From Aminobacterium mobile DSM 12262 (GTDB lineage Bacteria; Synergistota; Synergistia; Synergistales; Aminobacteriaceae): a stretch of 64,000 bases of DNA. Where the stretch lies: the NCBI RefSeq assembly GCF_000526395.1, contig NZ_JAFZ01000002.1, positions 250,501 through 314,500 on the forward strand, given 5' to 3'. How positions within the stretch are numbered: position 1 is the first letter of the stretch; every line of letters starts with the position of its first letter. The notes beneath the pieces were generated by a model that saw only the letters and a list, made by a program, of their open reading frames with translations, had not been told where the DNA came from and searched no databases. Below, in pieces: positions 34,250 to 62,613 of this stretch. The position numbers were made by a program, and so were the translations under genes.

Positions 34250-34296
34250 AAAAACCCCCGCTAGGACATAAGATCTATATCTACGTCCCGCGGGGG
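34250..34296 (-). terminator. Expression-platform terminator of the NiCo riboswitch
   Basis: On the minus strand CCCCCGC pairs with GCGGGGG, with an additional inner stem GGACGTAGAT..TTATGTCC (imperfect), followed by TTTTT. The 5' arm overlaps the conserved 3' segment of the aptamer (CGCGGGAC), so ligand binding and terminator formation should exclude each other. Confidence 0.85.
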
Positions 34297-34362
34297 AATA
34301 AATGTTCCCGCTGCCTCATGAAGGCCCAGCTGCACCTTTTATTATATAAAGGCCGCCTGTTC
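34285..34362 (-). ncRNA. NiCo (czcD) riboswitch aptamer
   Basis: On the minus strand the segment shows the conserved core of the NiCo motif in order: ACAGGC, a variable hairpin, GCAGCTGGGC, a short hairpin CTTCATGAGG, CAGCGGG, a hairpin, then CCCGCGGGAC. These align with my recollection of the Clostridial NiCo aptamer (AGCAGGC, GCAGCCGGGC, GGCAACAG, CUGUGGGAC). The class was described as Ni2+/Co2+ responsive and later as Fe2+ responsive. It directly precedes a cation-efflux ATPase and carries a terminator, so it should turn expression on when metal is high. Confidence 0.88.
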
Positions 34363-34375
34363 ACCATTTTGTGGA

Positions 34376-34486: not shown

Positions 34487-35869
34487 TTATTGGTTCATAG
34501 AGAGCACCAAGTTGACCATTTGAAGGAAGTTATCATTCATATCTTTTGTTGCATCTTCTCCCTTTTTGACTTTTTCCCTCACGGTATAAATAAATTTTCT
34601 CCATTCGTCATTGACCCCAGCCTCGTAGAATTCGTTATATTTAAAGTTTCCCCTTTGAGCTTCATAAACTGTTCCATCAACGAGAGCTTTAGGTGTAGCG
34701 TTTGCCCCCATCAGGAAAGGAATAGAATATCCGTAGGCTGGTAATGTTACAAAAATAGTCGTCAAAGCTTCTGGGTTTTCGGGATCAATTAAAATCGTGG
34801 CGCTCGACTGTGCTCGGGCAAAATTCCACAAGGCAGAGTGTTTTGAAACCTTGGGTGAATTAACTAATTCAATAGTTATATTCCCATAGTTTGTGACAAG
34901 GGCATCTTCAGGCGAACCATAATCATTTTCCCTAGAGACAGTGAAATATATCCCCTCATATTCATCCCCTGCATATACAAGGGGAGGACTCTCTCTTTCT
35001 TCTATAATCTTATAGCAATTATCCGCTATCTGAAGAATTTTCCCTCTTGCATCAACAAACAAATAATTAGTCCCTAACTTTCCACTGGCAATATATCCCT
35101 TCTCTGCAAAAGAATGGAGAACTTCTTTTGCTTCGTCAATGTTTTTACAGTGCTCAGCGATATAACGGGGAATGTAGTGATTCATAAATCCGTCATATTT
35201 AGGAGGATCAACGTAGGGTAGCTCTCCCTCGTAAGGACCAACATAACATTCTTTATGTTGCCACTGGGCTGGGACATCTGCGCCTCCTGCAAGACCTTTC
35301 TCGTTAACAAAAAACGACACTCCTGTATCTGCAGTACCCATTTCTCCGAAAAACTTATACGGTTTTTTATCACCTGGAGGCACTTTTGTTATTTTCTTAA
35401 GATAGGCTGATTGTAGATCTACAGCGGTTTCCCTCGTTTTATGAAAAATAATCTGTCCATCCCTTGTTGCCGGTGGAGCAACTGCAAATGAAGTACATCC
35501 TACTCCTTCATAAAAAAGGGCTAAATCCCTGTATCTTCCAAAAGTGAAAGCAATGTAAAGCTCCCGATCTATTCCAACCTTATCAGCAATAGCGTTAAGC
35601 TCATCGATCCAATAAGAACAATTAATCTTCTTGGAAAGGTCTATTGAAAGCTTCGCGAATTGCCTTAGCTGGTCTTCTTTACCCTCAGCTCGTGACATAA
35701 ATGTATTGTATGCCCTTAAAATAGAATCTCGGTTGACTTCTCCCCACATTGCCCCTACTTCAGCTGCTGATCCTTGCAAAAAAATCACTTCATCTGAAGG
35801 GACTGCAGCAAAAGCAGAAGTACTAAAAAGAACCGTTATAGTCGTCATTAACACTATTAAACGCTTCAT
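34487..35869 (-). CDS. Secreted C45-family (acyl-CoA:6-APA acyltransferase-like) Ntn hydrolase
   Basis: 460 residues from the ATG at 35869 with AAAGGAGG 8 bases upstream; the longer in-frame start at 35941 reads through that site. A signal peptide (MKRLIVLMTTITVLFSTSAFA) comes first. The probable autoproteolytic nucleophile is the Cys in YEGVGCTSFAVAPP, followed by GQIIFHKTRE, as in C45/linear amide C-N hydrolases. If correct, the precursor is cut before this Cys and the mature enzyme hydrolyses an amide or acyl bond outside the cytoplasm. It lies 138 bases beyond the catabolic operon on the same strand. Confidence 0.78.
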   Translation of the reverse strand: MKRLIVLMTTITVLFSTSAFAAVPSDEVIFLQGSAAEVGAMWGEVNRDSILRAYNTFMSRAEGKEDQLRQFAKLSIDLSKKINCSYWIDELNAIADKVGIDRELYIAFTFGRYRDLALFYEGVGCTSFAVAPPATRDGQIIFHKTRETAVDLQSAYLKKITKVPPGDKKPYKFFGEMGTADTGVSFFVNEKGLAGGADVPAQWQHKECYVGPYEGELPYVDPPKYDGFMNHYIPRYIAEHCKNIDEAKEVLHSFAEKGYIASGKLGTNYLFVDARGKILQIADNCYKIIEERESPPLVYAGDEYEGIYFTVSRENDYGSPEDALVTNYGNITIELVNSPKVSKHSALWNFARAQSSATILIDPENPEALTTIFVTLPAYGYSIPFLMGANATPKALVDGTVYEAQRGNFKYNEFYEAGVNDEWRKFIYTVREKVKKGEDATKDMNDNFLQMVNLVLSMNQ

Positions 35870-35961
35870 TTTAATGCCTCCTTTTGATAAGAATGGAGGA
35901 GTCTTTACCTCCTTCATTCTTAAAAAAATAGAGCACCCCAAAAACTCTTTCTTCTACTTGC

Positions 35962-36007: not shown

Positions 36008-36892
36008 TTAGGATTGAGGTAAGTACTGATTTTCCAACTCTCTGAAAATATTAAAACCTACGAGTTCTTTAAAATCTTTAAAGGGTGCCACTAAATCATT
36101 TCGCCCTTCTGCTATTTTATCCCCGCTTATCGCTTCAAGGTATGTTGTCATTCCCTTAATAGCTGCAAATAACGGACCGACAGGAATACTGACTCGACCA
36201 ACTTTCATCTTTTTCAAAGTTTCAATGGGGATAAGGGGGGTTTTTCCTCCACTCACTGCATCGAATAAGTTGATACTAATTGGGGCTTTTACTTCATCAA
36301 TAATTTTTTGAATTTGCTCTTTTGATTGTGGAGCCTCAACAAAAATTAAATCAGCTCCTGCATCTGCATAAGCATTAGCTCTTTTTATAGCCTCATCAAC
36401 TCCAGCTACAGCAATAGCATCTGTACGAGCATTAATAACGAAGTCGGGATCCAGTTCATTTTTCGCAGCGACACAAGCTTCGATCTTCAGAACCATTTCT
36501 TCCTTAGAAATAATCTGTTTCCCTTCAAGGTGCCCACATCGCTTAGGGAAAAGTTGATCTTCAATATTCATACCAGCAGCACCAATACGGATCAATTCTT
36601 TCGTCACGTACATGGCGTTAATACTACTTCCAAACCCCGTATCGGCATCAGCCATAATAGGTATATCCACCGCATTCACTATATTTTTGGTAAAACTCAA
36701 CATTTCCCCGAAAGAAAGAAATGCCATATCAGGCAAACCAAGCCACGTGGCAGATAGCCCAAAACCACTCACTTGAAGAGCTTCAAAACCAGCCTTTTCT
36801 ATAAGTTTTGCAGAAATGGCATCATGGGCTCCTGGACAAACAAGTGCTCTTCTTTCAAAAATCATTTTTTTAAGACTGGTTGTTTTTCTCAA
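36008..36892 (-). CDS. Isocitrate lyase/PEP mutase superfamily lyase (methylisocitrate or dimethylmalate lyase-like)
   Basis: 294 residues from a TTG at 36892, chosen because GGGGG lies 8 bases upstream; an ATG at 36907 is the alternative. The barrel shows CPGAHDAISAKLIEKAGFEAL, MADADTGFG (metal-binding Asp), and PKRCGHLEGKQII, the loop with the catalytic Cys that separates lyases from PEP mutases. Known relatives cleave 2-methylisocitrate (PrpB) or 2,3-dimethylmalate, releasing pyruvate or succinate and a short acid. It overlaps the end of the TRAP permease gene and is the last gene of the operon, fitting the final C-C cleavage step. Confidence 0.85.
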   Translation of the reverse strand: MRKTTSLKKMIFERRALVCPGAHDAISAKLIEKAGFEALQVSGFGLSATWLGLPDMAFLSFGEMLSFTKNIVNAVDIPIMADADTGFGSSINAMYVTKELIRIGAAGMNIEDQLFPKRCGHLEGKQIISKEEMVLKIEACVAAKNELDPDFVINARTDAIAVAGVDEAIKRANAYADAGADLIFVEAPQSKEQIQKIIDEVKAPISINLFDAVSGGKTPLIPIETLKKMKVGRVSIPVGPLFAAIKGMTTYLEAISGDKIAEGRNDLVAPFKDFKELVGFNIFRELENQYLPQS

Positions 36893-38804
36893 TGTTAATT
36901 CCCCCATCAATAAGAATACGTTCTCGCTTTAAAAGTGCCCTGTTCCATATAAAAGCCACAACCACTGCTATTCCACCAGCTATAGAAACTCCAACGTTTG
37001 GGAATAGGAGCAAAATACCACCTGCTAAAAAAAGAACTCGGCTCATTAAAGCTACAACGCCCTTTCCAAACCCGAAAAAACCATACGCTATTGCTATAGA
37101 ACCCACAAAACCAGTAACTCCATGACATAAAATAGAAGGGAGCGGTCCTCTGCCCACAAGAGATGGATTGAGCGCAAAAAAATAAGGCAGTATAAACGCT
37201 ACAGCTCCAAGTTTAATGGCATTAAGCCCAGTCTTTACCCAGTCCCCCTTAGAAATACTGGCTGCAGCAACAGCTGCGGTACAGGTAGGAGGAGTTACCC
37301 CTCCTAAGATCGCCCAATAAATAAAGAAGAGATGAGCAGCAACCTCATCAATGCCAATTTTCAACAACGGAGGAACGAGAATAGAGACAGAAAGGACGTA
37401 AGTAGGAACTACCGGTAGGGATGTACCTAAAATAAACGGAACAATTGTAGCAACAAGAAGAGCTATAAAAATATTGGATCCTCCATGCTTTAATATCAAG
37501 CCACTTACTTTAGGAGCTATGCCAGTAATTCCAATGAGGTTCACCAACACACTGACGGAGACAAGAATTGGAACAATTCTTGCTACATCGGCTCCACCCT
37601 CAGCAAGCGCCGATAAAATTTTTTGGGGTGTTTCTTTGATTTTCCCTTTCGTAAAATCACATATGGCCAATATTATTATGGTAGAGATACTCGCGTAAAA
37701 ACCCGCCTTAAGAAGAGGCTGTCCCACTGTTATAAGATAAAGAAGAATAACGGTGGGGATAATAAGTCCCGCCATCCGCTCAAAAGTAAGGACATCTTTC
37801 CACTTAGGAATTTCCTCTTCAGGGACGGCAGAGAGCCCCCTCCGCTTCGTCTGAAAATGAACACCGCTGAATACGCCCGTATAAAAGAGGAAGCATGGTA
37901 GTATGGCGTAACCTATGATCTTCATATAAGAGATATTCAGGAATTCAGCCATCATAAAAGCCGTAATACTCATAATTGGAGGAGTAATGCCTCCTCCGGA
38001 AGAGGCTATGGCTTCTACCGCTCCTGCAAATTCAGGGCGATATCCAAGGCGCTTCATAAGCGGAATAGTATAGCTTCCTGTAACCATAACATTTGCTACA
38101 GAACTGCCCGAAATGCTTCCAAAAAGGGCACTTGAGACTACCGCCGCCTTCGCCGGTCCTCCAACAAAACGGCCTGTAAGAGCTAGCGCTAAATCAATAA
38201 AGGTTTTACCTCCTCCTGTAGCAGACAGTAATGATCCGAAGATAATAAACATAGCTATAAAGGTAGCGGACATACCGGTGACACTACCGAACAACCCGAG
38301 GGGAGAAAAATATATAGAGTTCATAATAAACTCAAAGGACAATCCTCGTATCTTCCAAATTCCTCCTAAATGAGGAGCTACGTATATATAGAGGAAAAGC
38401 AAAGTGACAATAATAGGAATAGCTGGTCCTACAGTTCGACGGGCAGCTTCTAAAACAATAATCATAAGTGCTGTTCCTAAAACAAGATCGAACGTTGTGG
38501 CTCCGCCAGGATTCATGTAAATTCCAAGAGCTTTACTTATGGCATTTATACATGCAATAGCAATAATTGCGATAAGGAATATATCCCAAAGATATGAACG
38601 ATCATTATTGTTCTCCTCCCCTTGACGGAAAGGGCAGTGGAGTAACGCTATGGAAACCCCGAGGGCAACATGAAGAGCCCTCACTTGTATATCGAGTAAG
38701 TGCTGAAAAAACATGGGAACAATCAATTGCGTGAGAGAAAAAATAATACCGCTCCAGAACAAAATCTTATCTACGTGTTTTTTGAAAAAGTTTTGTAAAT
38801 CCAC
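36870..38804 (-). CDS. TRAP transporter permease, fused small and large subunits (TAXI type)
   Basis: 644 residues with many hydrophobic segments. The N-terminal ~160 residues correspond to the small DctQ-like part (4TM), the rest to the 12TM DctM-like part, with GSISGSSVANVMVTGSYTIPLMKRLGYRPEFAGAVEAIASSGGGITPP (in outline) diagnostic of the fused family. It imports an organic acid using a sodium or proton gradient together with the TAXI binding protein upstream. A GTG start follows AAGGGGGG. An inverted repeat between it and the binding-protein gene may lower its expression. Confidence 0.93.
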   Translation of the reverse strand: MDLQNFFKKHVDKILFWSGIIFSLTQLIVPMFFQHLLDIQVRALHVALGVSIALLHCPFRQGEENNNDRSYLWDIFLIAIIAIACINAISKALGIYMNPGGATTFDLVLGTALMIIVLEAARRTVGPAIPIIVTLLFLYIYVAPHLGGIWKIRGLSFEFIMNSIYFSPLGLFGSVTGMSATFIAMFIIFGSLLSATGGGKTFIDLALALTGRFVGGPAKAAVVSSALFGSISGSSVANVMVTGSYTIPLMKRLGYRPEFAGAVEAIASSGGGITPPIMSITAFMMAEFLNISYMKIIGYAILPCFLFYTGVFSGVHFQTKRRGLSAVPEEEIPKWKDVLTFERMAGLIIPTVILLYLITVGQPLLKAGFYASISTIIILAICDFTKGKIKETPQKILSALAEGGADVARIVPILVSVSVLVNLIGITGIAPKVSGLILKHGGSNIFIALLVATIVPFILGTSLPVVPTYVLSVSILVPPLLKIGIDEVAAHLFFIYWAILGGVTPPTCTAAVAAASISKGDWVKTGLNAIKLGAVAFILPYFFALNPSLVGRGPLPSILCHGVTGFVGSIAIAYGFFGFGKGVVALMSRVLFLAGGILLLFPNVGVSIAGGIAVVVAFIWNRALLKRERILIDGGINIEKNNQS

Positions 38805-38847
38805 CCTGTTCTACCCCCCTTGTTAACTTACTCTTTTCGAGGGTGCG

Positions 38848-38872
38848 GGAGGTAGGAAAAAATCCTACCTCC
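38848..38872. other. Intra-operon hairpin between TAXI and permease genes
   Basis: GGAGGTAGGA-AAAAA-TCCTACCTCC, perfect 10-bp arms. On the minus strand no T run follows, so it probably stabilises the upstream binding-protein message rather than ending transcription. Confidence 0.55.
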
Positions 38873-38891
38873 ATTTTTACTATAGGATTTT

Positions 38892-39911
38892 TTACTTATA
38901 CTCTGGTGGAATAAAATATTCTGGCACTTCTATACCTTTCTCTTTCGCATAACGAATGAGTCCGGCATGGGCAGGAATAAAGGCATCCTCTGGCGCATAT
39001 TTAAAGTAGTCTGCCACAGGATCCCATCCTTTTACAGGAGAGTAAGCTGCCGCCACTTCTTCAAAACCTTCCATATAGGATTTAATAATGTTATAAGCCA
39101 CCTCTTCAGACATATCCGCAGTAGCTACAGCCCCTGCTATAGGACACTCTTCCCATATAGGGCCTACATCGGGAAGTTGAGAGATAGTTCCTTTTTCAGT
39201 CTTTAAAAAGCTCATGCTGGGAATCTTTTCCCGTATTTTTTTCACATCTTCTTCTGAATATCCAATAACTGTTAATGGGTTCGTAATATTGACTTCTATC
39301 AGGGAAGCATCCATAGAATTTAACCCACTGGATTTCTGAAGCCCTACTATACGCCCTTCTTTCAGCGCATTTACTGCGTCTCCATACGCCATGGGCATAA
39401 GATTAATTTTCGTGCCCAAAATATCGTTATACTGCATAATGTAAGAAGCAGAAGCAGATCCTGGGATGCCTGGACAAAATCTCTTCCCTGCAAAATCCCC
39501 AAAAGATTTTATGCCAGCATCTTTTCTTACATAGAGACGATCGGCAAATACATTTCTCAAAAAGAGCCATCGAACGTTTGTATAAGGTTTTTCACCTTCA
39601 AAAGCTCCCTTGCCTTCATAAAGCTGAAGAGTAGATGGCAAATCGATACAGAGAGCAAAGTCAAAGACTCCATCGCGTACCTTTTTAAGATTATCTATAC
39701 CGGCGCCACTCTCAACTACCGTTACGTTAAGCCCTACATTGGCCTTATTAATTACGTTGGCAGTAGCTACGCACCATGCGTAAACACCAGAGGCAGAAGA
39801 GGTACTTCCCATGTTCAAACTGGTCTCGCTCCCATATCCTGCGCCAACGATCCCGAAAGAGAAGATCACCAGCAGACATAACACAAATAACACTTTCCAA
39901 TTTTTCTGCAT
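38892..39911 (-). CDS. TAXI-family TRAP solute-binding protein
   Basis: 339 residues with a signal peptide (WKVLFVLCLLVIFSFGIVGAG). The mature protein begins with LNMGSTSSASGVYAWCVATANVINK, the G-T/S-x-S-G-x-Y motif of TAXI proteins, and contains FAGKRFCPGIPGSASASYI. It captures the transported acid in the periplasm and hands it to the fused permease. TAXI ligands are poorly known (glutamate and 2-oxoglutarate are among those described). GGGGGAACC precedes the ATG. A 140-base gap separates it from the LeuD-like gene. Confidence 0.93.
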   Translation of the reverse strand: MQKNWKVLFVLCLLVIFSFGIVGAGYGSETSLNMGSTSSASGVYAWCVATANVINKANVGLNVTVVESGAGIDNLKKVRDGVFDFALCIDLPSTLQLYEGKGAFEGEKPYTNVRWLFLRNVFADRLYVRKDAGIKSFGDFAGKRFCPGIPGSASASYIMQYNDILGTKINLMPMAYGDAVNALKEGRIVGLQKSSGLNSMDASLIEVNITNPLTVIGYSEEDVKKIREKIPSMSFLKTEKGTISQLPDVGPIWEECPIAGAVATADMSEEVAYNIIKSYMEGFEEVAAAYSPVKGWDPVADYFKYAPEDAFIPAHAGLIRYAKEKGIEVPEYFIPPEYK

Positions 39912-40051
39912 TGTGGTTCCCCCTTTTTTTACTTTGGTCGTTTCATTCCAAAGATCTTGTTCTCCTAAATACGATCTAAGGAAAAGCCCGGGCCTTTTTT
40001 GTTTTTTAGTAACGAGTAGCCTTTCATCCCCCCCTTTTTAAGGTTCTGCTA

Positions 40052-40555
40052 TCACTCCGCTACAGGTAACGTAAAGGTTTTGTTCTTTTTCAGATAGGGC
40101 GTTAGGCCTCCTTCAGAAAGAATGCTAATCATTATTTCTGGAAGAGATTCCATATGGATTTGTTGGTTTGTTGTGAGGTTATAAATCTTCTGTGAGGATA
40201 AGTCTATTTCCAATAAATCTTGATCTTGTATCTTATCAGTATTACAAATAAGAGCTGGGAGGCCTAAATTAATAGCATTTCTAAAAAATATACGCGCAAA
40301 AGATTTCGCTAAAATGGCACCAACTTTTGCATACTTCAGAGCAAGGACTGCCTGTTCCCGTGAAGAGCCACAACCAAAATTCAAGCCTGCCACCACGTAA
40401 TCTCCTGGCTCCATTTTTTTATAAAATCCCGGAGAAATATCTTCAAAGACATGCTCTGCTAAAAAATTGTAATCGAGAGTTTTTGTATACTTCCCAGCTA
40501 TAATGTAATCTGTATTTATATTGTCATCAAATTTATGAGCTTTTCCTTGAACCAT
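40052..40555 (-). CDS. Aconitase-family hydratase, small (swivel) subunit, LeuD-like
   Basis: 167 residues, matching the LeuD/DmdB length. GKAHKFDDNINTDYIIAGKY opens the swivel domain, and GLNFGCGSSREQAVLALKYA is the substrate-binding loop with Arg. With the large subunit it would form a heterodimeric dehydratase/hydratase. The family covers 3-isopropylmalate, homoaconitate, citraconate/2-methylmalate and 2,3-dimethylmaleate. No leuA or leuB is nearby, and the neighbours point to breakdown, not leucine synthesis. Confidence 0.9.
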   Translation of the reverse strand: MVQGKAHKFDDNINTDYIIAGKYTKTLDYNFLAEHVFEDISPGFYKKMEPGDYVVAGLNFGCGSSREQAVLALKYAKVGAILAKSFARIFFRNAINLGLPALICNTDKIQDQDLLEIDLSSQKIYNLTTNQQIHMESLPEIMISILSEGGLTPYLKKNKTFTLPVAE

Positions 40556-40571
40556 AAAATTCCCCCCCTAT

Positions 40572-41834
40572 TCATTCTAAAAACTGTCGAGGGTCAGTAA
40601 TACGTCCCTTTACCGCCGAGGCAGCACAAGTAGCAGGGGAGGCCAGATAAATATTAGCTTTATTATTCCCCATACGGCCCTTAAAATTTCTGTTAGCTGT
40701 AGAGAGTACCACTTCTCCATCGCTAGGAACTCCTAAATGAGTGCCAGGGCACGGGCCACACCCTGGAGGAATAATAACGGCGCCGGCCTGAACAAGAGTT
40801 TCTATAATCCCTTCCTGCAAGGCTGAAACTAAAACATGGCGAGATGCTGGCGCTACAAGTAAGCGGCAACGAGGATGTACTCTTTTATCTCTCAATATAG
40901 CCGCAGCAATTCTAAGATCTTCTAATCTACCGTTCGTACACGTACCTACAAAAACTTGATGGATTTCCGTTCCCGCAAGTTCTTCTACAGGGCATACGTT
41001 ATCAACCGCATGTGGAGATGCTATCTGAGGAACAATAGAGTCTGCTGCTATTTCTATAGTATTCTTATACTCAACATTATCATCATCGAAGACAGGAGAA
41101 TAGTTTTTTTGAGTTCTTTCTGCCAAGTATGCCTCTGTTTTCTCGTCACACTCCATAATCCCCACTTTCGCCCCGCACTCAATTGCCATATTGCACAAGG
41201 TGAGCCTTTGAGAAACATCCATTGCATTAATAGTTTCCCCAGCGAAATGGAGCGCCAGATAGTCTGCTCCATCTGACCCCAGTCGGCCTATAGTATAAAG
41301 TATCAGATCTTTAGCGTACGTCCCCTGGGCCATGGATCCATAATAAGAAATTTTGAGAGTTTCAGGGACCTTCATCCATAGCTGTCCTGTGAGCATCACT
41401 CCACTCATATCTGTAGAACCTATTCCAAACGCAATGGCATTCACAGCACCATAAGTACAGGTATGAGAATCACAACCTACTACTATTTCCCCCGGAGTAA
41501 CAAGGCCCTGCTCTACCATAAGCTGATGGCATATTCCCTCTCCGCCTTCAAAAAGACGTACTTCTTGTTCTTCGGCAAAATAGCGCATCATCGCATGAAG
41601 AAAACTTACCTGTTCATTGGGACAAGGTACGGCATGATCAAGAACAAGAACGAACCTCGATGGATCCCATATTTTCTTCTCTCCATATTCGAGAAATGCC
41701 TGTATGGCCCGAGGGGCCGTGCTATCATGAGCCATAGCCATATCTACGTTCACGATAGCAAAGTCCCCCGCCCGCACGTCCTGACCGCAATGAGAAGATA
41801 TAATTTTTTCAACAATAGTTCTCCCTTTGGTCAT
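40572..41834 (-). CDS. Aconitase-family hydratase, large (Fe-S) subunit, LeuC-like
   Basis: 420 residues, as in the prokaryotic LeuC/HacA/DmdA group. The cluster ligands are visible: HTCTYGAVNAIAFGIGSTDM supplies one Cys, VFVGTCTNGRLEDL is nearby, and PPGCGPCPGTHLG gives the C-x-x-C pair. STANRNFKGRMGN contains the substrate-binding arginines. It ends 16 bases before the small-subunit gene. In this operon a reversible hydration of a branched unsaturated di- or tricarboxylate is the most likely role; the exact substrate is inference. Confidence 0.92.
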   Translation of the reverse strand: MTKGRTIVEKIISSHCGQDVRAGDFAIVNVDMAMAHDSTAPRAIQAFLEYGEKKIWDPSRFVLVLDHAVPCPNEQVSFLHAMMRYFAEEQEVRLFEGGEGICHQLMVEQGLVTPGEIVVGCDSHTCTYGAVNAIAFGIGSTDMSGVMLTGQLWMKVPETLKISYYGSMAQGTYAKDLILYTIGRLGSDGADYLALHFAGETINAMDVSQRLTLCNMAIECGAKVGIMECDEKTEAYLAERTQKNYSPVFDDDNVEYKNTIEIAADSIVPQIASPHAVDNVCPVEELAGTEIHQVFVGTCTNGRLEDLRIAAAILRDKRVHPRCRLLVAPASRHVLVSALQEGIIETLVQAGAVIIPPGCGPCPGTHLGVPSDGEVVLSTANRNFKGRMGNNKANIYLASPATCAASAVKGRITDPRQFLE

Positions 41835-41862
41835 ATTTATGCTCCCACCTTCATTGCTACGA

Positions 41863-43254
41863 TTACGTATCTCTTCTTAACAAAGCGGTGAGGTGTCTGA
41901 TGTTTTCTACTTCTTCCAGATTCAAAACAGTGTCAGCTATTTTCTTTCTTCGCTCTTCGTCTTCAAATACTCGACCTGCCAGAGAATTAAATTTCCAAAG
42001 AAGTTCTTCTTTCGAGAAAGGATTAAGCGGATGCCCCTTGGGATACTCATTTTTTAGATGGAATGTCTGACCGTTATTCAAATCAATCTCAACGGTAATG
42101 GTATAACGAAGCTCTCGAGGAAGATTCTCTATATCAGGATTGGTATAAACTTCCACTTTTCTCGCTAAATCAAGAATTTTAGGATCCTGTATTTTTTCTT
42201 CTGTGAACTGCTCTACAAAGGCGTTGCCTTCAAGAAACGTGACAGCACACACATACGGATGGCTCAACTGTGCCGATACAACACTCGTTATCTCATCTGC
42301 AGGAACAGAATATTTGTGAGTGATAGACGTGGTTCCTACCCTAATTTTCTTTATATCTTCAGATTTTATCTCAGGATGGTCCGCTCTGAATTTTCGCAAG
42401 GCATCTATAGTTGTATGCTTGCTTCGGCAGGTCGAGTAAAACTTCAGCCCAATACCCAGTAACTCCCAACGACTGCCAAGTTCCCCAGCTGTACGCTCTA
42501 TATCGTATACATCATCTGTGAAACAATTATAGAATCCACCAAACTTATTTTCAAAAACATCTTCAATACCGGTAAAACCTTCTTTTGCAAGGAGACCTCC
42601 CAAGATAGCTCCCTCAGAAGATTTAGAAGGTACAATTCGTTTGGCCATAGAGGCGAACTGAACAGCCTGAAGTCCACTTGACCAATTGCCTGTAATTCCC
42701 ATTGCATGAACCATTTGTTCTTTAGAGAGCCCCAACATTTTGCCTACCCCAGCGGCAGAACCGAAAGGACAACATGAGCCCGTATTATTAAAACCTTGGT
42801 GGGCCAATTCAGTGCCAATAGGAGCAGCTATTCGACAAGCAACTTCAAAAGCTAGAACAGCAGATGTAAGAAAATCTTTGCCAGAAACATTGCCTAAAGT
42901 TTCCGCGAAAGCGGTAATACATCCAAGAACTCCGGTGGCAACATGTATAATGCCATCAGTATGAGTATCATCAAGTTCGAAAGAGTTGATAGCAGCGCCA
43001 TTGAGCATCATAGCTGCTGTTACAGATGTTTTTTGGCTGGTCCCCCATATAGAGGCTTCCTGTCTATCCGTTCTCTCTAGAAGAACATCTCTATAAATCT
43101 TCATCCAAGGCGTAGTGGAGCCGAAAAGCCCGCAACCGTAAGCATCAAGAAGTACGTTTTTAAGATGGAACACAACTTCTTGAGGGATATCCTCGTACTT
43201 AAGGTTCACTATAAACTGAGAAAGACTATCGTTAATTCTGTCTGCCGTGGCCAT
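41863..43254 (-). CDS. MmgE/PrpD family protein, paralog 1
   Basis: 463 residues. The all-helical MmgE/PrpD fold is indicated by VFHLKNVLLDAYGCGLFGS, LNGAAINSFELDDTHTDGIIHVATGVLGCITAFAE (in outline) and FYSTCRSKHTTIDALRKFRADHP, the substrate-pocket region. Characterised relatives include 2-methylcitrate dehydratase, cis-aconitate decarboxylase and iminodisuccinate epimerase, all acting on short polycarboxylates. AAAGGAGGAG precedes the ATG. One of three paralogs in the operon, which implies several related reactions or a multi-subunit enzyme. Confidence 0.92.
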   Translation of the reverse strand: MATADRINDSLSQFIVNLKYEDIPQEVVFHLKNVLLDAYGCGLFGSTTPWMKIYRDVLLERTDRQEASIWGTSQKTSVTAAMMLNGAAINSFELDDTHTDGIIHVATGVLGCITAFAETLGNVSGKDFLTSAVLAFEVACRIAAPIGTELAHQGFNNTGSCCPFGSAAGVGKMLGLSKEQMVHAMGITGNWSSGLQAVQFASMAKRIVPSKSSEGAILGGLLAKEGFTGIEDVFENKFGGFYNCFTDDVYDIERTAGELGSRWELLGIGLKFYSTCRSKHTTIDALRKFRADHPEIKSEDIKKIRVGTTSITHKYSVPADEITSVVSAQLSHPYVCAVTFLEGNAFVEQFTEEKIQDPKILDLARKVEVYTNPDIENLPRELRYTITVEIDLNNGQTFHLKNEYPKGHPLNPFSKEELLWKFNSLAGRVFEDEERRKKIADTVLNLEEVENIRHLTALLRRDT

Positions 43255-43281
43255 CTAATGCTCTCCTCCTTTTCTGGTTCC

Positions 43282-44655
43282 CTAATATGACAGCATTTTG
43301 GTAAGATCCACTATTGGTTTTTCTGTTGGGTCTCCACTCATAACCCAGTTCATAACCTTGTCTGCTTTCTCACCAGAAAAAATATTATGTGTAACTTCTT
43401 TAAATTTTTCCCGTAGATCTTCGTCAGACATGGGATTTAATGGGTCTCCCTTGGCGTAATCTACAGTGGAACTCCATATTTGACCGTCTTTATTTCTGAT
43501 TTCCACGATAGTGGTGCGCTTTTCAGGATAAGAGGCTTGAATCACAGGATCTTCCTCTATAACTATTTTTTGGGCTAAAGCTTTGATACGATCATCTTTA
43601 ATGTTTTCTTCCGTATATTCCTGAAGCCCAGCTTTCCCCCTCACTAACATGGAACCTATGCCATACTGTATGCTCAACCGAGCGTGAAGCACTGTCTGAT
43701 AGTCTGGGATATCGGAACCCTGTTTAGCATTTTGGTGGGTTCGAACCCGTATGCTCTCTATATCTTCGAGCGTAACAACATGCTCATTCTGAATATTCTG
43801 TACGGCTTCGACAGCATAATGGACGTAACGACAGGAACAATAAGGCTTGAAATAAATTTTCTGGAATTCCCACTCTTTTCCTAAATTTCGATCTACTATT
43901 TCAGGGGTAAAGGCATGAGAGAAACAATGGGCAAACCCTAAACGCCCTTCTAGAATTTCTTGAGGGCCTGTAAAGCCTTTTCGGGCCAGATATGCTGCGA
44001 AAATTCCATTCCTCGCAGCATTTCCAGGATGAAGGTGTTTTACAAAAGATCCGTCAATTTCGTATTGGTTAATGCCAGAAGCCAAACTTCCCACAATTCC
44101 CATTGCAGAAATTAACTCTTCAAGAGAGAGCCCCAACAGCTTAGAGCTTACCACTGTAGTTCCAAAGGTTCCCACAGTTCCTGTCGGATGAAAACCCTTT
44201 AAATAATGAGAAGGGTTTACGGACGTTCCTATACGTAAAGAGACCTCGTACCCTAAAGCCAGGGCTAACAGAATATTTGCAAGGCTAGCATTACATTGTT
44301 CCCCCAATGCTAAAGCAGTGGGGATCATAGAAGCCCCTGGGTGATAGGTAGCATATTTAGATCCGTCGTCAAGTTCAAGAGCATGAGCTGCAACCCCATT
44401 AGCCAAAGCTGCATAAGATGCCTCCAATTTTTGAGATGCCCCAATTACTGTGGCATTTCCTGCTGTTCCATGTTCTTTAACAAAGTCTTGAATAACTTTT
44501 GCTGAATCAGCTAAGGCCGCCCCAGCAATAATGACCCCAATCGTATCTAAGAGACATCGTTTAGCCTGGTGAATAACGGCTTCTGGAAGATCACCGTAAG
44601 AAGCCGTTATAGCAAACTTCGCAAGTTCTCTGGAAAGAGTAGTCTTACTCTCCAT
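43282..44655 (-). CDS. MmgE/PrpD family protein, paralog 2
   Basis: 457 residues from the ATG at 44655, which lies 9 bases after GGAGG and overlaps the DUF4387 stop by 11 bases; the longer in-frame start at 44718 would run through that gene. Family segments are AKRCLLDTIGVIIAGAAL, ANGVAAHALELDDGSKYATYHPGASMI (in outline), GFHPTGTVGTFGTTVVSSKLLG, and FKPYCSCRYVHYAVEAVQNI. It is more similar to paralog 3 than to paralog 1 around HPGASM/HPAVAI and GFHPTGT/GFHSTGT. The substrate is unknown. Confidence 0.92.
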   Translation of the reverse strand: MESKTTLSRELAKFAITASYGDLPEAVIHQAKRCLLDTIGVIIAGAALADSAKVIQDFVKEHGTAGNATVIGASQKLEASYAALANGVAAHALELDDGSKYATYHPGASMIPTALALGEQCNASLANILLALALGYEVSLRIGTSVNPSHYLKGFHPTGTVGTFGTTVVSSKLLGLSLEELISAMGIVGSLASGINQYEIDGSFVKHLHPGNAARNGIFAAYLARKGFTGPQEILEGRLGFAHCFSHAFTPEIVDRNLGKEWEFQKIYFKPYCSCRYVHYAVEAVQNIQNEHVVTLEDIESIRVRTHQNAKQGSDIPDYQTVLHARLSIQYGIGSMLVRGKAGLQEYTEENIKDDRIKALAQKIVIEEDPVIQASYPEKRTTIVEIRNKDGQIWSSTVDYAKGDPLNPMSDEDLREKFKEVTHNIFSGEKADKVMNWVMSGDPTEKPIVDLTKMLSY

Positions 44656-44974
44656 CCCATGGAACCTCCAAAGAGAAAAGCGGGGCGTATTGCTGACAAC
44701 CGTATACATCCGTTTCACTGGGCCCGCCGCTCGCTATAGATCTTCGTATATTGGCCTTGATCCCCATACCCGGATCAAAGAACATGAAGTCTAAAACTTT
44801 GTCTTTTGGGATATCATAAGCCTGAGCTATAGCTTCCTGAGTAATAACTCCACTTTTTTTCACTTTTTCATATACTGAACGGTCGTCAAAAATAATTTCC
44901 AGGGTAATCATGAAACTCCCGGCATTCTTGCTCCTCACCGTTCGTGCCAAATTACATATATTTTTTGTTTTCAT
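44645..44974 (-). CDS. DUF4387-family protein, AtuA partner
   Basis: 109 residues. IRSKNAGSF-like opening (CNLARTVRSKNAGSFMITLEIIF) and VYGCQQYAPLF near the end are what I recall of DUF4387, a small protein encoded next to, or fused to, AtuA-family proteins. It probably forms a complex with the AtuA-like product. Its ATG overlaps the stop of the preceding MmgE/PrpD gene (ATGA), with GGGAGG upstream. No catalytic motif was recognised. Confidence 0.8.
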   Translation of the reverse strand: MKTKNICNLARTVRSKNAGSFMITLEIIFDDRSVYEKVKKSGVITQEAIAQAYDIPKDKVLDFMFFDPGMGIKANIRRSIASGGPSETDVYGCQQYAPLFSLEVPWDGE

Positions 44975-46371
44975 GAGTGAAACCTCCCGAAGTGGTTAAC
45001 TATTTCCCCATAGGAGACTTCGTCCTGGGGCTTTTTCACACAAAGCTCCCATAGCCCATTAAAAAACTCTTGGGGATAGTAGGGACCTACCATACCGGCC
45101 AGTTTTTCCACTAAATCTTCATCTGTAACTGGATTTTCAGGTTCGCCCTTAGCTACTGGAATCCCTTTTTCAAACTGTCGACCATCATGAAGAGTAATGT
45201 TTATCCATGCTCCTCGTTCTTCTGGATAGATTCGATTCATCTCTTCATCTTCTTCTATGCGCACTTTAAGAGCTGTTTCTCTCAAAACAGGATCAGCCAA
45301 TGTTTTTGCATCATAATCTTGCAACGTTACATTTCCACGCTCAAGAGCTATAGCCACGGAGAAAGGAAGGCTAAACATGGCTTCTTCAAACGTATGAGGA
45401 ACAAAAATCTTTCCCACTTCAGCAATACCTAAAGCATAGGTTTTAACATGAATAGACTTTACGTCTTCAACGGACAACCCCAGTCTTTTCTTCCCTTCTC
45501 TAGCAAGATCTACAGCTGCGTGACAATGACGGCACGTGGGATAGAGCTTCGTATAGGTGTACATAATTTCCCATCGTTTCCCTAAAGCTCCCAGAAGAGC
45601 CTCTTCTGAAAACTCGTTGTTACACATGGCTTTTAACCACCCATGCTCGCCTTCAAAAAGAGTGCGAGGACCTTTGGCACCTCGATCTACTAAATCTGCT
45701 GCTAATACTCCGCCCAAAGCAGCTTTCCCTGGCTGAAGAGGTTTTATACCGGGATGATCGTGAAGCATTTCTTGTAAGCCAGCACTCTGTAATCCTCCAA
45801 GAGATACGGAGTAAGCAAAACGTTGGGCATCGAAATTTTTAAGGTATGCGCATGCGGCTGCTGCTCCGAGGGCGCCACATGTACCTGTAGAGTGAAACCC
45901 TCGCTTGAGATGAGAAGGATTAATAGCTCTTGCTGCTCTCAGCATCACATCGTAACCAATAATGATAGCCTCTAGAAGCTTCGTAAAGGAAGCGTTATCT
46001 CTTTCAGACATGGCGAGAACTGCAGGAATTATGGCTACTGCTGGATGGCACGTTCCCCACCTATGCCCATCATCTAGCTCTATGGAATGACCTAACACAC
46101 CCAAAGCTAAAGCTGCATGCATAGCTGGGACTTGATTCCCGTGGCAAAGGATAGTAGCTTCCCTCGCTCCACCTATATGGTGGAGATACGATGCACACTG
46201 TGACTGAAAAGTACCCGTCTGAAATCCCACGGCAACTTCAGAGAGAAAATCCACAAGTACACGCCGAGCCTTATTTATTACCTCAGGAGTCATACAATGT
46301 TTCCCTTTTTCTACATAAAACCGGCTCAGTTGGGAAAGATAGGTCTGATCCAAGGCAATATCGCCTATCAT
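44971..46371 (-). CDS. MmgE/PrpD family protein, paralog 3
   Basis: 466 residues. LALGVLGHSIELDDGHRWGTCHPAVAIIPAVLA (in outline), RGFHSTGTCGALGAAAACAYL and YTKLYPTCRHCHAAVDLAREG mark the family. Its ATG overlaps the AtuA stop by 4 bases and its stop overlaps DUF4387 by 4, so the three are translationally coupled, suggesting stoichiometric production. Function within the polycarboxylate-modifying family is unassigned. Confidence 0.92.
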   Translation of the reverse strand: MIGDIALDQTYLSQLSRFYVEKGKHCMTPEVINKARRVLVDFLSEVAVGFQTGTFQSQCASYLHHIGGAREATILCHGNQVPAMHAALALGVLGHSIELDDGHRWGTCHPAVAIIPAVLAMSERDNASFTKLLEAIIIGYDVMLRAARAINPSHLKRGFHSTGTCGALGAAAACAYLKNFDAQRFAYSVSLGGLQSAGLQEMLHDHPGIKPLQPGKAALGGVLAADLVDRGAKGPRTLFEGEHGWLKAMCNNEFSEEALLGALGKRWEIMYTYTKLYPTCRHCHAAVDLAREGKKRLGLSVEDVKSIHVKTYALGIAEVGKIFVPHTFEEAMFSLPFSVAIALERGNVTLQDYDAKTLADPVLRETALKVRIEEDEEMNRIYPEERGAWINITLHDGRQFEKGIPVAKGEPENPVTDEDLVEKLAGMVGPYYPQEFFNGLWELCVKKPQDEVSYGEIVNHFGRFHS

Positions 46372-47759
46372 TTGTTTTTTCCCACCATCTCAAAGTGATA
46401 ACGGAAAATTTTGTTATCAAGGGGATCTTCCAGAGCTAAAAGATGATCAATAGTCCAGCGATAACACTTATTTTGAGGGAAGAGAGGTTCATCGGTAAGA
46501 AGGGCTACAGAGCCACCGGAAGAATTCATCTGTCCAGGGTAACTCATGTAAAAGAAACGGAATTTAGCACACTTAGCTACTGTAGTAGCCAGTTCTAAAT
46601 CCTGAGAAATAACTTCAATAAAAACTCCCAATTCATGGGACTGGGTTTTTATCACAGGCTCATATTCTTTCATTACCGCATTACGACCAAAGACGTGGAA
46701 GAACAGCTGATAATCCTTATCTCTAGATGGGCCGATAATATGAGAAACTTTTTTTCTCGTATCTTCTATGATCATATCAATATGTTCTATAGCTCGAGGA
46801 TCGCGAATACCAACAAAGTGATACACCCTATGTCCAGCCTCTCCAGCTCCCTCTAGTTTCACCTTATAGGAGCCATCAGGAGATGGAGCAAACTTGCTTC
46901 CAGAAACCTTAGCGATTCTATCTGTCACAGTTTCATATACGCTCTCATGCATATCGAGAATTCCACCGGGTAATCCTTGTACAAAAGGATTGGTACGTTC
47001 GTACATAGAGTGAGCCGCAAGACTATGAGGGGTCGCTCTTTGTTTCGGGTGCATAGGTTCAATAGTGAAATGGTCATGATGAACGGTAGCAATAATAGAT
47101 TCTTTTACCATTTGAGGCCAACAGACTAGAGAGGCACATTCTGCTGCTTTCCCCATATGAAGGCTAATTCCCTTATGAAACCCCTTAAAAATAGGATATG
47201 CGGCCAATACAGCGTCATCACAGGCTCGTCCTGCAATAATCACATCTGCGCCCTGTTCCAAGGCATAAAGAAACTGTTCGACCCCCATACTAGCAGTCAC
47301 GTTTGTTGTTTGATCGATAACTTCTTTTGTAAGGGGAAAATCTGCTTCAAGGGGTTCTGTTTCGCCTCGTTCAACTCGTCTTAAAAGCTCTTCCTTATCA
47401 ACTTGGGAATAAATGAGAGCCATTTTGAAAGGTTTTAAGCTGTGGTCCTTCGCAATGTCACGAATAAGGTTTCCATACAAATCTACAGTCCGATCAGTTC
47501 CTGTAGTACTGCATGACCCTACAATCATTGGTACGTTTTTCTTCCTAGACTCCACAAGCATAACTTCAAGGTCATGTCTTTCCCACTCAATTGGATTATG
47601 CGGTTTATCCGCTCCTAAAAAAGTAGGTCCGGCATCAGCAGTTCCAGCATCAGCGGCAAAACAATCAATATGATGTTTCACCCCTTCGTAAAAAGATTCC
47701 TCCTCAATAATGTTGTCTCCTAAGTTACCAGTAGACACGAGAAGTGAACATTTCTCCAC
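46368..47759 (-). CDS. AtuA-family (DUF1446) protein, first gene of the operon
   Basis: 463 residues from a GTG with GGAGGG 8 bases upstream. FAADAGTADAGPTFLG and VPMIVGSCSTTGTDRTVDLY match the conserved blocks of the AtuA/acyclic-terpene-utilisation family, followed by MALIYSQVDKEELLRR and the central GADVIIAGRACDDAVLA. AtuA is needed for citronellol/geranate use in Pseudomonas, but its reaction is not established. Here no terpene genes accompany it; instead it heads a polycarboxylate operon with DUF4387. It lies 22 bases downstream of the NrpR-type operator. Confidence 0.85.
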   Translation of the reverse strand: MEKCSLLVSTGNLGDNIIEEESFYEGVKHHIDCFAADAGTADAGPTFLGADKPHNPIEWERHDLEVMLVESRKKNVPMIVGSCSTTGTDRTVDLYGNLIRDIAKDHSLKPFKMALIYSQVDKEELLRRVERGETEPLEADFPLTKEVIDQTTNVTASMGVEQFLYALEQGADVIIAGRACDDAVLAAYPIFKGFHKGISLHMGKAAECASLVCWPQMVKESIIATVHHDHFTIEPMHPKQRATPHSLAAHSMYERTNPFVQGLPGGILDMHESVYETVTDRIAKVSGSKFAPSPDGSYKVKLEGAGEAGHRVYHFVGIRDPRAIEHIDMIIEDTRKKVSHIIGPSRDKDYQLFFHVFGRNAVMKEYEPVIKTQSHELGVFIEVISQDLELATTVAKCAKFRFFYMSYPGQMNSSGGSVALLTDEPLFPQNKCYRWTIDHLLALEDPLDNKIFRYHFEMVGKNK

Positions 47760-47779: not shown

Positions 47780-47795
47780 CGGAAATTGATTTCCG
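47780..47795. promoter_or_regulatory. NrpR-type operator, exact GGAA-N6-TTCC
   Basis: CGGAAATTGATTTCCG: a 6-bp inverted repeat with a 4-base centre containing GGAA-N6-TTCC, the operator consensus known for methanogen NrpR. It lies at the expected transcription start of the AtuA operon, where bound repressor would block transcription. Confidence 0.7.
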
Positions 47796-47994: not shown

Positions 47995-48030
47995 TATAAA
48001 TATAAACATTTTATGGAAGGAGTTTTTTTC

Positions 48031-49047
48031 ATGATTTCCAATGAAAGGTATCCATCTACAGTAATAGAAATTCTTAGAATCCTCTATTTTTCAGAGGGAC
48101 TTCAACCATCCAGCGTTATCCGTTCTCAATTGGAAGAACGAGGATTTGAGCTCGACTCTAGAACTGTTCGCTATCATCTTTCCAATATGGAAGACGATGA
48201 ACTGATAAAACGGAAAGGAAATAGAGGCGCTTTACTTACTGAAAAGGGGACAAAGGAAGCGAAGATGCTCTTTGTTTTCGATAGGATTGGGACTCCTTCT
48301 TTCGAGACAGAAAAGCTCTCTTCTCAATATTCTTACGATAAAAAGAAAAAGAAGGGACGTATCGTAGTGAATTGTCTGCTTTTGGAACAAAATAAAGTAA
48401 AAAAAGCCTTGACAGAACTTCGAAAAGTTATAAAAAACGATGTTTTTGTTTCGCCGCTCGTTGGGCTTATTGCAGAGCCAAGGCAAATTTGGAATTGTGA
48501 TATTTCTCAAGATTATGTTGGACTCGTATGTGTCTCTTCCAGAAACTACGACATTATCCTTCAAAAAATGGGCATTTATATTGAAACGACGGCCACAGGT
48601 TTATATCGTCTTGAAAATCAATCCCCTCGTGGCTTTACCGAAATTATATCGCATACAGGAACAACCCTGAGCCCTGGGGAAATACTTATCCGCGGGAAAT
48701 ACACATCTGTAAGCCAATTGACAGAAAAAGGGAATGGTCTGGTAACCGCCGCAATTAAAACATTTCCGTCTTTTTTGTATAAAGAGCTTCAAGCTGCACT
48801 GGAAGATCTTGACCCTTCTATTTTCTCAGGCCTTCTTTACCATAGCGGACTTATCCCTCCCTCATATCGCATTAGCTCAAGGGATCGGAATAAAGGATTC
48901 ATGGTCATTTATGGCGGAGCCAACCTCTTTGCGCCTCTTATAGAGAAGGGCATTACTACCGACCTTTCCATTGCCAGCGGTTTATACGAGGCTGAAAAAT
49001 TAACTACTATAGAGACACTATTCGAATCTCTACCTAAATATATCTAA
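48031..49047 (+). CDS. NrpR-like (DUF128) transcriptional regulator
   Basis: 338 residues from the ATG at 48031, which follows GGAAGGAG by 8 bases; an ATG at 48013 lacks a site. Residues ~5-70 form a winged helix (EILRILYFSEGLQPSS, SRTVRYHLSNMEDDELIKR). The remainder is a DUF128/NrpR regulatory domain; ISHTGTTLSPGEILIRGKYT and GLVTAAIKTFPS correspond to its most conserved block. In methanogenic archaea NrpR represses nitrogen genes and is released by 2-oxoglutarate. Here one DUF128 domain is seen and the neighbours are organic-acid genes, so the effector may be a related dicarboxylate. Confidence 0.85.
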   Translation: MISNERYPSTVIEILRILYFSEGLQPSSVIRSQLEERGFELDSRTVRYHLSNMEDDELIKRKGNRGALLTEKGTKEAKMLFVFDRIGTPSFETEKLSSQYSYDKKKKKGRIVVNCLLLEQNKVKKALTELRKVIKNDVFVSPLVGLIAEPRQIWNCDISQDYVGLVCVSSRNYDIILQKMGIYIETTATGLYRLENQSPRGFTEIISHTGTTLSPGEILIRGKYTSVSQLTEKGNGLVTAAIKTFPSFLYKELQAALEDLDPSIFSGLLYHSGLIPPSYRISSRDRNKGFMVIYGGANLFAPLIEKGITTDLSIASGLYEAEKLTTIETLFESLPKYI

Positions 49048-54888: not shown

Positions 54889-55113
54889 ATATAAAACTCC
54901 CCCTCTCCTTCCTCTTCTCTCTTCTACCCCCAAATATCCCCCCGAAGACTTTCTGCTTTTTATTGACGAGAGAAAAAACTAAAAATACAATAACAAAAAG
55001 TCTGATTTTTTTCATGAAACCACGGTCGCATAAATCTTTTATAAAATAATTCTCTGTTATCTATCATTTAGATTTCTTGAACAAAAGGGGAGGCAAAGGA
55101 GGAAAAGCTGCAA
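54889..55113. other. Divergent intergenic region, no gene seen
   Basis: AT-rich gap between the glycosyltransferase (minus) and the small exported protein (plus). No confident promoter pair or operator was found. AAAGGAGG near 55095 serves the plus-strand gene. Confidence 0.4.
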
Positions 55114-55545: not shown

Positions 55546-55612
55546 TCAATAGTGCATGCACATGATAAAAAGTAATAAGATTTATTCCATTATTAGGGAG
55601 GTTGGCTATCCT

Positions 55613-56743: not shown

Positions 56744-56744
56744 A

Positions 56745-56773
56745 AGAATGAGGGGGGGATCCCCCCTCATTCT
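56745..56773 (+). terminator. Intra-operon hairpin after the binding-protein gene
   Basis: AGAATGAGGGGGG and its complement, 13-bp perfect arms around GAT. No long T tract follows (CAAGAAAAAAC), so it probably stabilises the upstream message and attenuates read-through to the permease. Confidence 0.65.
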
Positions 56774-56797
56774 CAAGAAAAAACAGGAGTGATTGAA

Positions 56798-57634: not shown

Positions 57635-57643
57635 GAGAGAATT

Positions 57644-62588: not shown

Positions 62589-62613
62589 ATATAAAACAAG
62601 GGAGGTATTGTTC

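Follow-up and report, generated by a model that had tools for sequence, protein, structure and literature searches.

The window analyzed here is the whole stretch of 64,000 nucleotides from Aminobacterium mobile DSM 12262 (contig NZ_JAFZ01000002.1, positions 250,501 to 314,500; source genome G000, 2.1 Mb). Its minus strand carries a ten-gene operon (36008-47759) that is a candidate pathway for the fermentation of a branched dicarboxylic acid. An original prediction, made from the letters alone, had described ten genes on one strand (AtuA-like, DUF4387, three MmgE/PrpD, LeuC-like, LeuD-like, a TAXI protein, a fused TRAP permease, and a lyase of the isocitrate lyase [ICL] family) as a single catabolic operon that includes uptake genes, a hydratase, and a C-C lyase. 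Coordinates and Pfam and NCBIfam profile searches confirmed all ten genes and their families, and the family assignments support the catabolic description (Table 1).

Table 1. Features of the operon and its flanks in the window
Feature	Position	Strand	Evidence
cmlA-like, AtuA family, large subunit of citramalate-lyase-type enzyme	46368..47759	-	PF07287 61 bits; 9ERQ/9EVF CmlA E 1.4e-77
PrpD1, MmgE/PrpD one-base type, predicted hydratase/dehydratase feeding the lyase	44971..46371	-	PF03972+PF19305; fixed catalytic set
cmlB-like, DUF4387, small subunit of CmlA-type lyase	44645..44974	-	PF14330 123 bits; 9ERQ_B CmlB E 6e-23
PrpD2, MmgE/PrpD two-base type, predicted epimerase of substituted succinate/malate	43282..44718	-	both MmgE/PrpD domains; IDS epimerase top PDB match; His + Tyr bases
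PrpD3, diverged MmgE/PrpD, two carboxylate-binding His to Asn	41863..43254	-	both MmgE/PrpD domains
LeuC/DmdA-type hydro-lyase large subunit (Fe-S)	40572..41834	-	TIGR02086/TIGR01343 above cut-off
LeuD/DmdB-type small subunit, loop GKYTKT	40052..40555	-	TIGR02087 'LeuD/DmdB' 195 bits
TAXI-family TRAP solute-binding protein, signal peptide	38892..39911	-	TIGR02122 115 bits
Fused TRAP permease	36870..38804	-	TIGR02123 530 bits
PEP-mutase/ICL-superfamily C-C lyase, petal-death-protein/dimethylmalate-lyase-like, loop KRCGH	36008..36910	-	PF13714; 1zlp
C45-family (AAT) autoproteolytic hydrolase, signal peptide	34487..35941	-	PF03417; NF040521 81 bits, cut-off 85
NrpR-like transcriptional regulator, HTH_12 + NRD, divergent	48013..49047	+	PF01995 171 bits; PF08461
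NrpR-type operator GGAAATTGATTTCC (GGAAN6TTCC)	47781..47794	.	21 nt ahead of cmlA start codon

The genes are tightly packed, with overlaps of 4 nt (cmlA/prpD1 and prpD1/cmlB) and ~38 nt (trap/lyase) and gaps of 16 to 28 nt ahead of prpD3, leuC, and leuD. Larger gaps precede taxi (140 nt) and trap (87 nt, enclosing a 10-bp hairpin that the scan assigns to the plus strand); the other genes overlap or lie at most 30 nt apart. The start codon of prpD2 is most likely ATG 44655, and that of the lyase is likely ATG 36907. The unit extends beyond the ten genes, with the NrpR-like regulator upstream in divergent orientation and the C45 hydrolase downstream on the same strand.

Recurrence of the gene set

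Orthologs of PrpD1 and PrpD3 (at least 60% identity) were found in 22 and 21, respectively, of the 183 genomes of the order Synergistales, in one copy each and in 10 of 59 genera; the two occur in the same genomes except for one fragmented assembly. Aminobacterium and several related genera share the order cmlA-prpD1-cmlB-prpD2-prpD3-leuC-leuD-taxi-trap-lyase, with nrpR opposite, and the ordered set is also present in Thermovirga and unclassified Synergistales. Acetomicrobium carries the set as two divergent halves, which are still adjacent. Genes that are rearranged yet never separated provide strong evidence for joint function.

Outside the order, the metagenome-assembled genome (MAG) “bacterium GBS-1” holds the ordered set up to the permease, where the locus stops, and an Armatimonadetes MAG has a nearly complete set, without the transporter, on a short contig. 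A “Candidatus Atribacteria” MAG (L061) keeps a smaller core of permease, TAXI, cmlA, prpD1, and cmlB, its TAXI and TRAP proteins matching their operon orthologs at 55% and 60%. Since two or three MAG contigs may be misbinned, the case for other phyla is weaker than that for Synergistota. Co-occurrence in other genomes, which the original prediction had named as a check on itself, was borne out: the gene set, which recurs in at least 10 Synergistales genera and also in MAGs from other phyla, is more than a chance grouping. Two further genes neighbor the Atribacteria core: one encodes a 1,216-aa protein (L061:1883-5533) that ends in a GlmL-like (B12-mutase reactivase) domain and whose N-terminal 695 residues are unassigned, and the other encodes an MTTB-like methyltransferase (L061:12416-13873).

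Parts of the set also meet in more distant hosts. On a plasmid of Variovorax (a betaproteobacterium), a stretch of ~12 kb holds CmlAB, a LeuCD-like pair, an ICL-family lyase, and an RraA protein; on a plasmid of the haloarchaeon Halomarina sp. BND7 (L073), CmlAB, LeuCD, and an ICL-family lyase share ~20 kb with two MmgE/PrpD genes. In Haloferax and Peribacillus, LeuCD stands instead beside a coenzyme A (CoA)-transferase and an HMG-CoA-lyase-like gene, an arrangement suggesting that cleavage, be it with CoA or without, draws on a hydroxy diacid made by LeuCD. The Halomarina genes are part of a ~30-kb archaeal catabolic cluster (L073 1-40000) with an LLM monooxygenase, amidohydrolases, isochorismatase-family hydrolases, CmlAB, two LeuCD pairs, the ICL-family lyase, and the two MmgE/PrpD genes; it looks like a cluster for breaking an N-containing ring down to a branched diacid.

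Enzymes, transporter, and regulator

Chains of the PDB entries 9ERQ/9EVF, titled citramalate lyase CmlA/CmlB, were the sole PDB relatives of the operon's AtuA and DUF4387 proteins. The two genes are paired, flank prpD1, and encode the residues that are invariant in the family (30 in the CmlA alignment, shared by all relatives), which places them in this two-subunit lyase family. An E. coli plasmid protein matches the 9ERQ chain at 91% identity, and its gene lies between one for methylaspartate ammonia-lyase and those for a symporter and class I fumarase; a Prevotella AtuA/DUF4387 pair has a similar gene context. The operon CmlA was not found in the clade of these citramalate lyases. In the tree (several branches outside the main clades are long and their placement is unsure), it formed a clade of its own (16 rows, support 100/100), separate from a six-row clade holding 9ERQ and the glm/mal-linked proteins. 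Between the operon and citramalate clades, 51 positions are fixed differently, two of which (C180 and D182) adjoin the invariant GR--D motif. The separate clade and these differences indicate that the substrate probably differs from that of citramalate lyase, and we describe the pair as a putative citramalate-lyase-type enzyme, not to be named citramalate lyase.

The original prediction had placed AtuA/DUF4387 in no known pathway and had counted one C-C lyase. The gene set as a whole is still unmatched, but the pair itself is of the citramalate-lyase type, so that the operon would hold two CoA-free C-C lyases, not one. In the methylaspartate clusters, a DUF1446 gene of unknown function stands at the AtuA position, and the fate of (S)-citramalate was left unsolved (PMC4682846). 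The AtuA and DUF4387 proteins of the E. coli (L074) and Prevotella (L077) methylaspartate clusters correspond to 9ERQ/9EVF, which appears to fill both gaps. Second, distant AtuA/DUF4387 pairs lie beside M20 peptidases in Synergistaceae (L014 and L025), the former also with a class I fumarase and a DcuC-type carrier.

The three PrpD proteins share 23 to 31% pairwise identity. MmgE/PrpD proteins are mostly uncharacterised (~50,000 homologs in GTDB), all characterised substrates have a 1,4-dicarboxylate backbone in common, and the residues that hold this backbone or act as bases have been listed (PMC12290011). We mapped these sites (His85, Asp/Glu88, His99, Tyr145, His150, Lys198, and Lys266) by alignment to 2HP0 and counted them in ~20 genomes, where each protein had a set fixed without exception: H,E,H,L,H,K,K in PrpD1, H,E,H,Y,H,K,K in PrpD2, and N,E,H,A,N,K,K in PrpD3. 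PrpD2 thus has both epimerase-type bases (aligned to H99 and Y145, the latter being Tyr172 in PrpD2), and every ortholog has all the epimerase-type residues; its top PDB match was IDS epimerase (E 3e-52). PrpD1 is without the Tyr (one base), and PrpD3 is without the Tyr and the two substrate-binding His. PrpD3 best resembles cis-aconitate decarboxylase; that it is a true one is disfavoured by the replacement of both carboxylate-binding His by Asn in all orthologs, and its residues mark it as an MmgE/PrpD of a different type. The original prediction of three PrpD paralogs therefore holds for their number, but their different catalytic residues mark them as three old orthologous groups that are not interchangeable. 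Groups so old and separately kept argue for three different steps. The position of prpD1 between cmlA and cmlB is the same at all fully covered loci, including the reduced one of Atribacteria.

The LeuC-like protein passes TIGR01343, TIGR02086, and NF001614 and scores below the LEU2 equivalog cut-off; the LeuD-like protein passes TIGR02087 and falls below that of the leuD equivalog. A role in leucine biosynthesis is disfavoured by these scores and by the position in the operon of leuC, the only aconitase-superfamily gene of the source genome (LeuA/LeuB not searched). The recognition loop of LeuD is published as setting specificity; here, it reads GKYTKT in all operon copies covering it and in a stand-alone lyase-leuD-leuC cluster, and no match to it was found among published LeuD recognition loops.

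The lyase matched petal death protein (1zlp) best in the PDB, followed by 2-methylisocitrate lyase, with 2,3-dimethylmalate lyase (3fa3) also matched, and fell below the cut-off of the methylisocitrate lyase (prpB) equivalog. Petal death protein is a 2-alkylmalate lyase. All Synergistota orthologs read have the loop KRCGH (K-K/R-C-G-H of ICL/PEP-mutase C-C lyases), which assigns them to this class. The likeness of the last enzymes to dimethylmaleate hydratase (DmdAB) and dimethylmalate lyase, noted in the original prediction, is upheld by TIGR02087 (“LeuD/DmdB”) and 3fa3.

At one operon locus (G001), leuCD and the lyase are missing while all else is kept, and lyase and LeuC paralogs lie elsewhere in the same genome; these genes thus form a separable second module. 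The same follows from close lyase paralogs elsewhere in the order, which adjoin TAXI-TRAP or Tct transporters, RraA-like aldolases, or LeuC. Four loci (L040, L041, L044, and L045) pair lyase paralogs (62 to 65%) with an RraA-like aldolase, a DUF1932 dehydrogenase, and TctABC or TAXI-TRAP, and may be further uncharacterised dicarboxylate clusters of Synergistota.

Both transporter proteins score above the cut-offs of the TRAP_TAXI and TRAP_fused models. Against known structures, the TAXI protein gave distant relatives only, and no close relative with a known ligand was found. The regulator has the features of the NrpR class by sequence (NRD domain, winged helix, and the operator GGAAN6TTCC, the NrpR consensus [PMC2723118]), and nrpR orthologs accompany nearly all operon loci. 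When one mismatch was allowed, 19 of 22 loci had the operator within 300 nt around the cmlA start (3.2 in shuffles, maximum 8), and 8 loci had it without mismatch (0.15 in shuffles); the 22 loci are related, so these counts are not independent. The operator was not found at L061 and L062, where no nrpR was found either, nor at L056, where nrpR is present. In the split Acetomicrobium loci, the operator also stands ahead of leuC. The C45 hydrolase gene follows the lyase gene in five genomes (G000, G002, G005, G006, and G018), the two being neighbors at loci L015, L016, L017, and L019, a linkage confined to the operon host's own family; no PDB relative of this hydrolase was found.

Candidate pathway and its alternatives

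The enzyme families of the operon all act on substrates with a C4 dicarboxylate backbone and work without CoA or ATP, and the set has no redox enzyme. We read it, with a probability of about 0.6, as a catabolic (fermentative) operon for a branched acid on a C4 1,4-dicarboxylate backbone, which would be taken up, passed through hydratase and epimerase steps, and cleaved without CoA by CmlAB and the ICL-family lyase. The substrate is most likely a 2,3-substituted succinate, malate, or fumarate of C5 to C8. The “di- or tricarboxylic” acid of the original prediction is thus narrowed to a dicarboxylate by the common backbone; a tricarboxylate is not specifically supported.

After import by the TAXI-TRAP transporter, PrpD1 would add or remove water to give the right 2-hydroxy acid, PrpD2 would epimerise a stereocentre, and PrpD3 might carry out a further isomerisation or decarboxylation. 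Citramalate lyase splits citramalate into pyruvate and acetate; the CmlA/CmlB-type enzyme would likewise cleave the hydroxy acid by a CoA-free retro-aldol/Claisen reaction to a 2-oxo acid and a short alkanoate. LeuC/LeuD would hydrate the remaining cis-unsaturated diacid, and the ICL-family lyase would cleave the malate derivative in the manner of dimethylmalate lyase, giving pyruvate and propionate or a similar acid, with pyruvate entering ordinary fermentation. The NrpR-like protein would repress the operon at GGAAN6TTCC, probably until relieved by substrate or intermediate. We infer the order of steps, the CoA-free chemistry in the operon clade, and the direction of regulation. CmlAB and PrpD1 probably act first on the imported substrate, since prpD1 lies between cmlA and cmlB at each locus covered in full, including the reduced Atribacteria core with its orthologous TAXI/TRAP; that these three form the smallest core, and LeuCD and the lyase the part that can be lost, favors CmlAB cleavage first.

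Several points weigh against this scheme. Its support comes from gene content and sequence comparison. The citramalate lyase name of CmlAB rests on PDB titles, and no CmlAB paper was found in the open literature; with 51 differences from true CmlA, the operon clade could differ even in reaction type. PrpD3 is left without an assigned reaction, and a sequence of two cleavages is not required, as the two lyases could act in parallel on two stereoisomers.

Three known pathways that the operon resembles conflict with genes missing from its carriers. No glutamate mutase subunit E was found in the 17 operon-bearing genomes (the source genome among them), which rejects methylaspartate glutamate fermentation, and a form of it with CmlAB as last step is very improbable: the E. 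coli and Prevotella AtuA/DUF4387 pairs do serve the methylaspartate pathway by gene context, but the operon lacks class I fumarase and methylaspartate ammonia-lyase and its CmlA sits in a separate clade. PrpF (the methylitaconate isomerase family) was likewise found in 0 of 17, so nicotinate fermentation as written is not supported, and this result fits the absence of its earlier genes remarked on in the original prediction. Catabolism of a tricarboxylate is improbable; on this route, PrpD would dehydrate citrate, aconitate, methylcitrate, or isocitrate, LeuCD would add the water back, and an enzyme like methylisocitrate lyase would carry out the cleavage. The order of PrpD, aconitase-type hydratase, and PrpB-like lyase in such a route parallels the methylcitrate cycle, and the resemblance of PrpD3 to cis-aconitate decarboxylase suits it, but all three PrpD score 26 to 64 bits on methylcitrate dehydratase models with cut-offs of 458 to 950, the lyase is below the prpB cut-off, and citrate synthase was not found in 15 of the 17 genomes, the source genome included (partial matches only in the other two); the methylcitrate cycle itself is rejected on these grounds. 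Pure cultures of A. colombiense, a carrier of the complete operon, do not use citrate, fumarate, malate, or succinate (PMC3035294), which disfavors the common C4 and C6 acids as substrate.

Two further possibilities are unlikely, each as much as the other, though less so than the tricarboxylate route. One is a C5 pathway, in which citraconate, mesaconate, itaconate, or citramalate isomers would be imported and all turned into citramalate or 3-methylmalate through PrpD and LeuCD, with CmlAB cleaving the (S)-form and the ICL-family lyase the (R)-form to pyruvate and acetate. The citramalate lyase titles of 9ERQ/9EVF, the need for two lyases if their stereo-preferences are opposite, and the presence of hydratases for both alkene geometries suit this pathway; the placement of the operon CmlA outside the clade of 9ERQ and the glm/mal- or fumarase-linked proteins, and the missing class I fumarase that accompanies that clade, do not, and an epimerase-type PrpD2 would have no role with citramalate, whose stereocentre has no hydrogen. 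The same enzyme makes sense for 2,3-disubstituted acids, as in the other possibility, a 2,3-dialkylmaleate or its malate (dimethylmaleate from the nicotinate fermentation of other organisms, or methyl-alkylmaleates from tetrapyrrole breakdown). Here, LeuCD would hydrate, the lyase would release pyruvate and an alkanoate, and the PrpD proteins would be isomerases, in keeping with the LeuD/DmdB subfamily of LeuD and the closeness of the lyase to petal death protein; the secreted C45 hydrolase and the Halomarina amidohydrolase and isochorismatase genes would suit an amide or imide precursor. This leaves CmlAB, PrpD1, and PrpD3 partly unexplained, however, the Atribacteria core has neither LeuCD nor a lyase near CmlAB, and the C45 linkage is confined to one family.

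No described pathway matching the ten-gene set, and likewise no substrate, was found in the open literature, in line with the original prediction. Returning to the branched-acid operon as the preferred reading, we hold it somewhat short of an even chance that it encodes an undescribed fermentation, in which a pair of unrelated C-C lyases and three functionally distinct PrpD proteins (PrpD3 being a new catalytic type) break down, wholly without CoA, an environmental acid that is branched, possibly abundant, and unrecognised. This fermentation would be common to Synergistota, Armatimonadota, Atribacterota, and a hot-spring lineage.

Neighboring features, significance, and related systems

Elsewhere in the window, a NiCo (nickel/cobalt) riboswitch (34281-34374, minus strand; 48.1 bits, gathering 37) precedes a P-type ATPase gene (31596-34154, minus strand) for which calcium-type models (PMR1/SERCA), rather than heavy-metal ones, are the best; Co/Ni export is a possible function of this ATPase. 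A DedA/VTT, PAP2, and LssY_C fusion (51652-53745, minus strand) adjoins a glycosyltransferase resembling monogalactosyldiacylglycerol synthase (53764-54933, minus strand), a possible envelope lipid pair. The plus strand carries an NMT1-like ABC transporter (binding protein, permease, and ATPase; 55556-58408) and, at the window edge, TrpB (tryptophan synthase beta, 573 bits; 62608-63789).

The operon points to an unrecognised carbon source in anaerobic digesters, oil reservoirs, and hot springs, with its operator, regulator, and binding protein as a genetic handle for finding it, and the proposal can be tested directly in two cultured carriers, A. colombiense and Acetomicrobium hydrogeniformans. 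A testable function is gained for AtuA/DUF4387 pairs that lie outside glutamate fermentation and are still annotated as “acyclic terpene utilization,” and separate reactions are predicted for three PrpD subfamilies.

Among known systems, the operon shares its AtuA + DUF4387 two-subunit enzyme with citramalate lyase CmlA/CmlB (9ERQ/9EVF) of methylaspartate glutamate fermentation, from which it differs in having PrpD, not class I fumarase, as partner hydratase and no glutamate mutase. The end steps of nicotinate fermentation in Eubacterium barkeri (DmdAB and dimethylmalate lyase) resemble it at family level only, through the LeuD/DmdB-subfamily hydratase and the ICL-superfamily lyase; the operon lacks the other nicotinate genes and has CmlAB and three PrpD in addition. 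It is like the 2-methylcitrate cycle (PrpC, PrpD, AcnB/AcnD, and PrpB) in dehydratase family, aconitase-type hydratase, and PrpB-like lyase, whereas most operon carriers are without citrate/methylcitrate synthase and the operon's parts score far below the equivalog cut-offs. In the itaconate/methylsuccinate cluster of Pseudomonas and Cupriavidus (PMC12290011), an MmgE/PrpD serves as methylsuccinate isomerase on a branched C4-backbone diacid and has the His/Tyr two-base set of PrpD2; that cluster works through a CoA transferase, an acyl-CoA dehydrogenase, and a citramalyl-CoA lyase, whereas the operon has no CoA enzyme. The NrpR regulon of methanogens (PMC2723118) shares the NRD + winged-helix repressor and the GGAAN6TTCC operator with the operon's regulator, which by contrast is bacterial, stands beside a catabolic operon, and need not have 2-oxoglutarate as its ligand.

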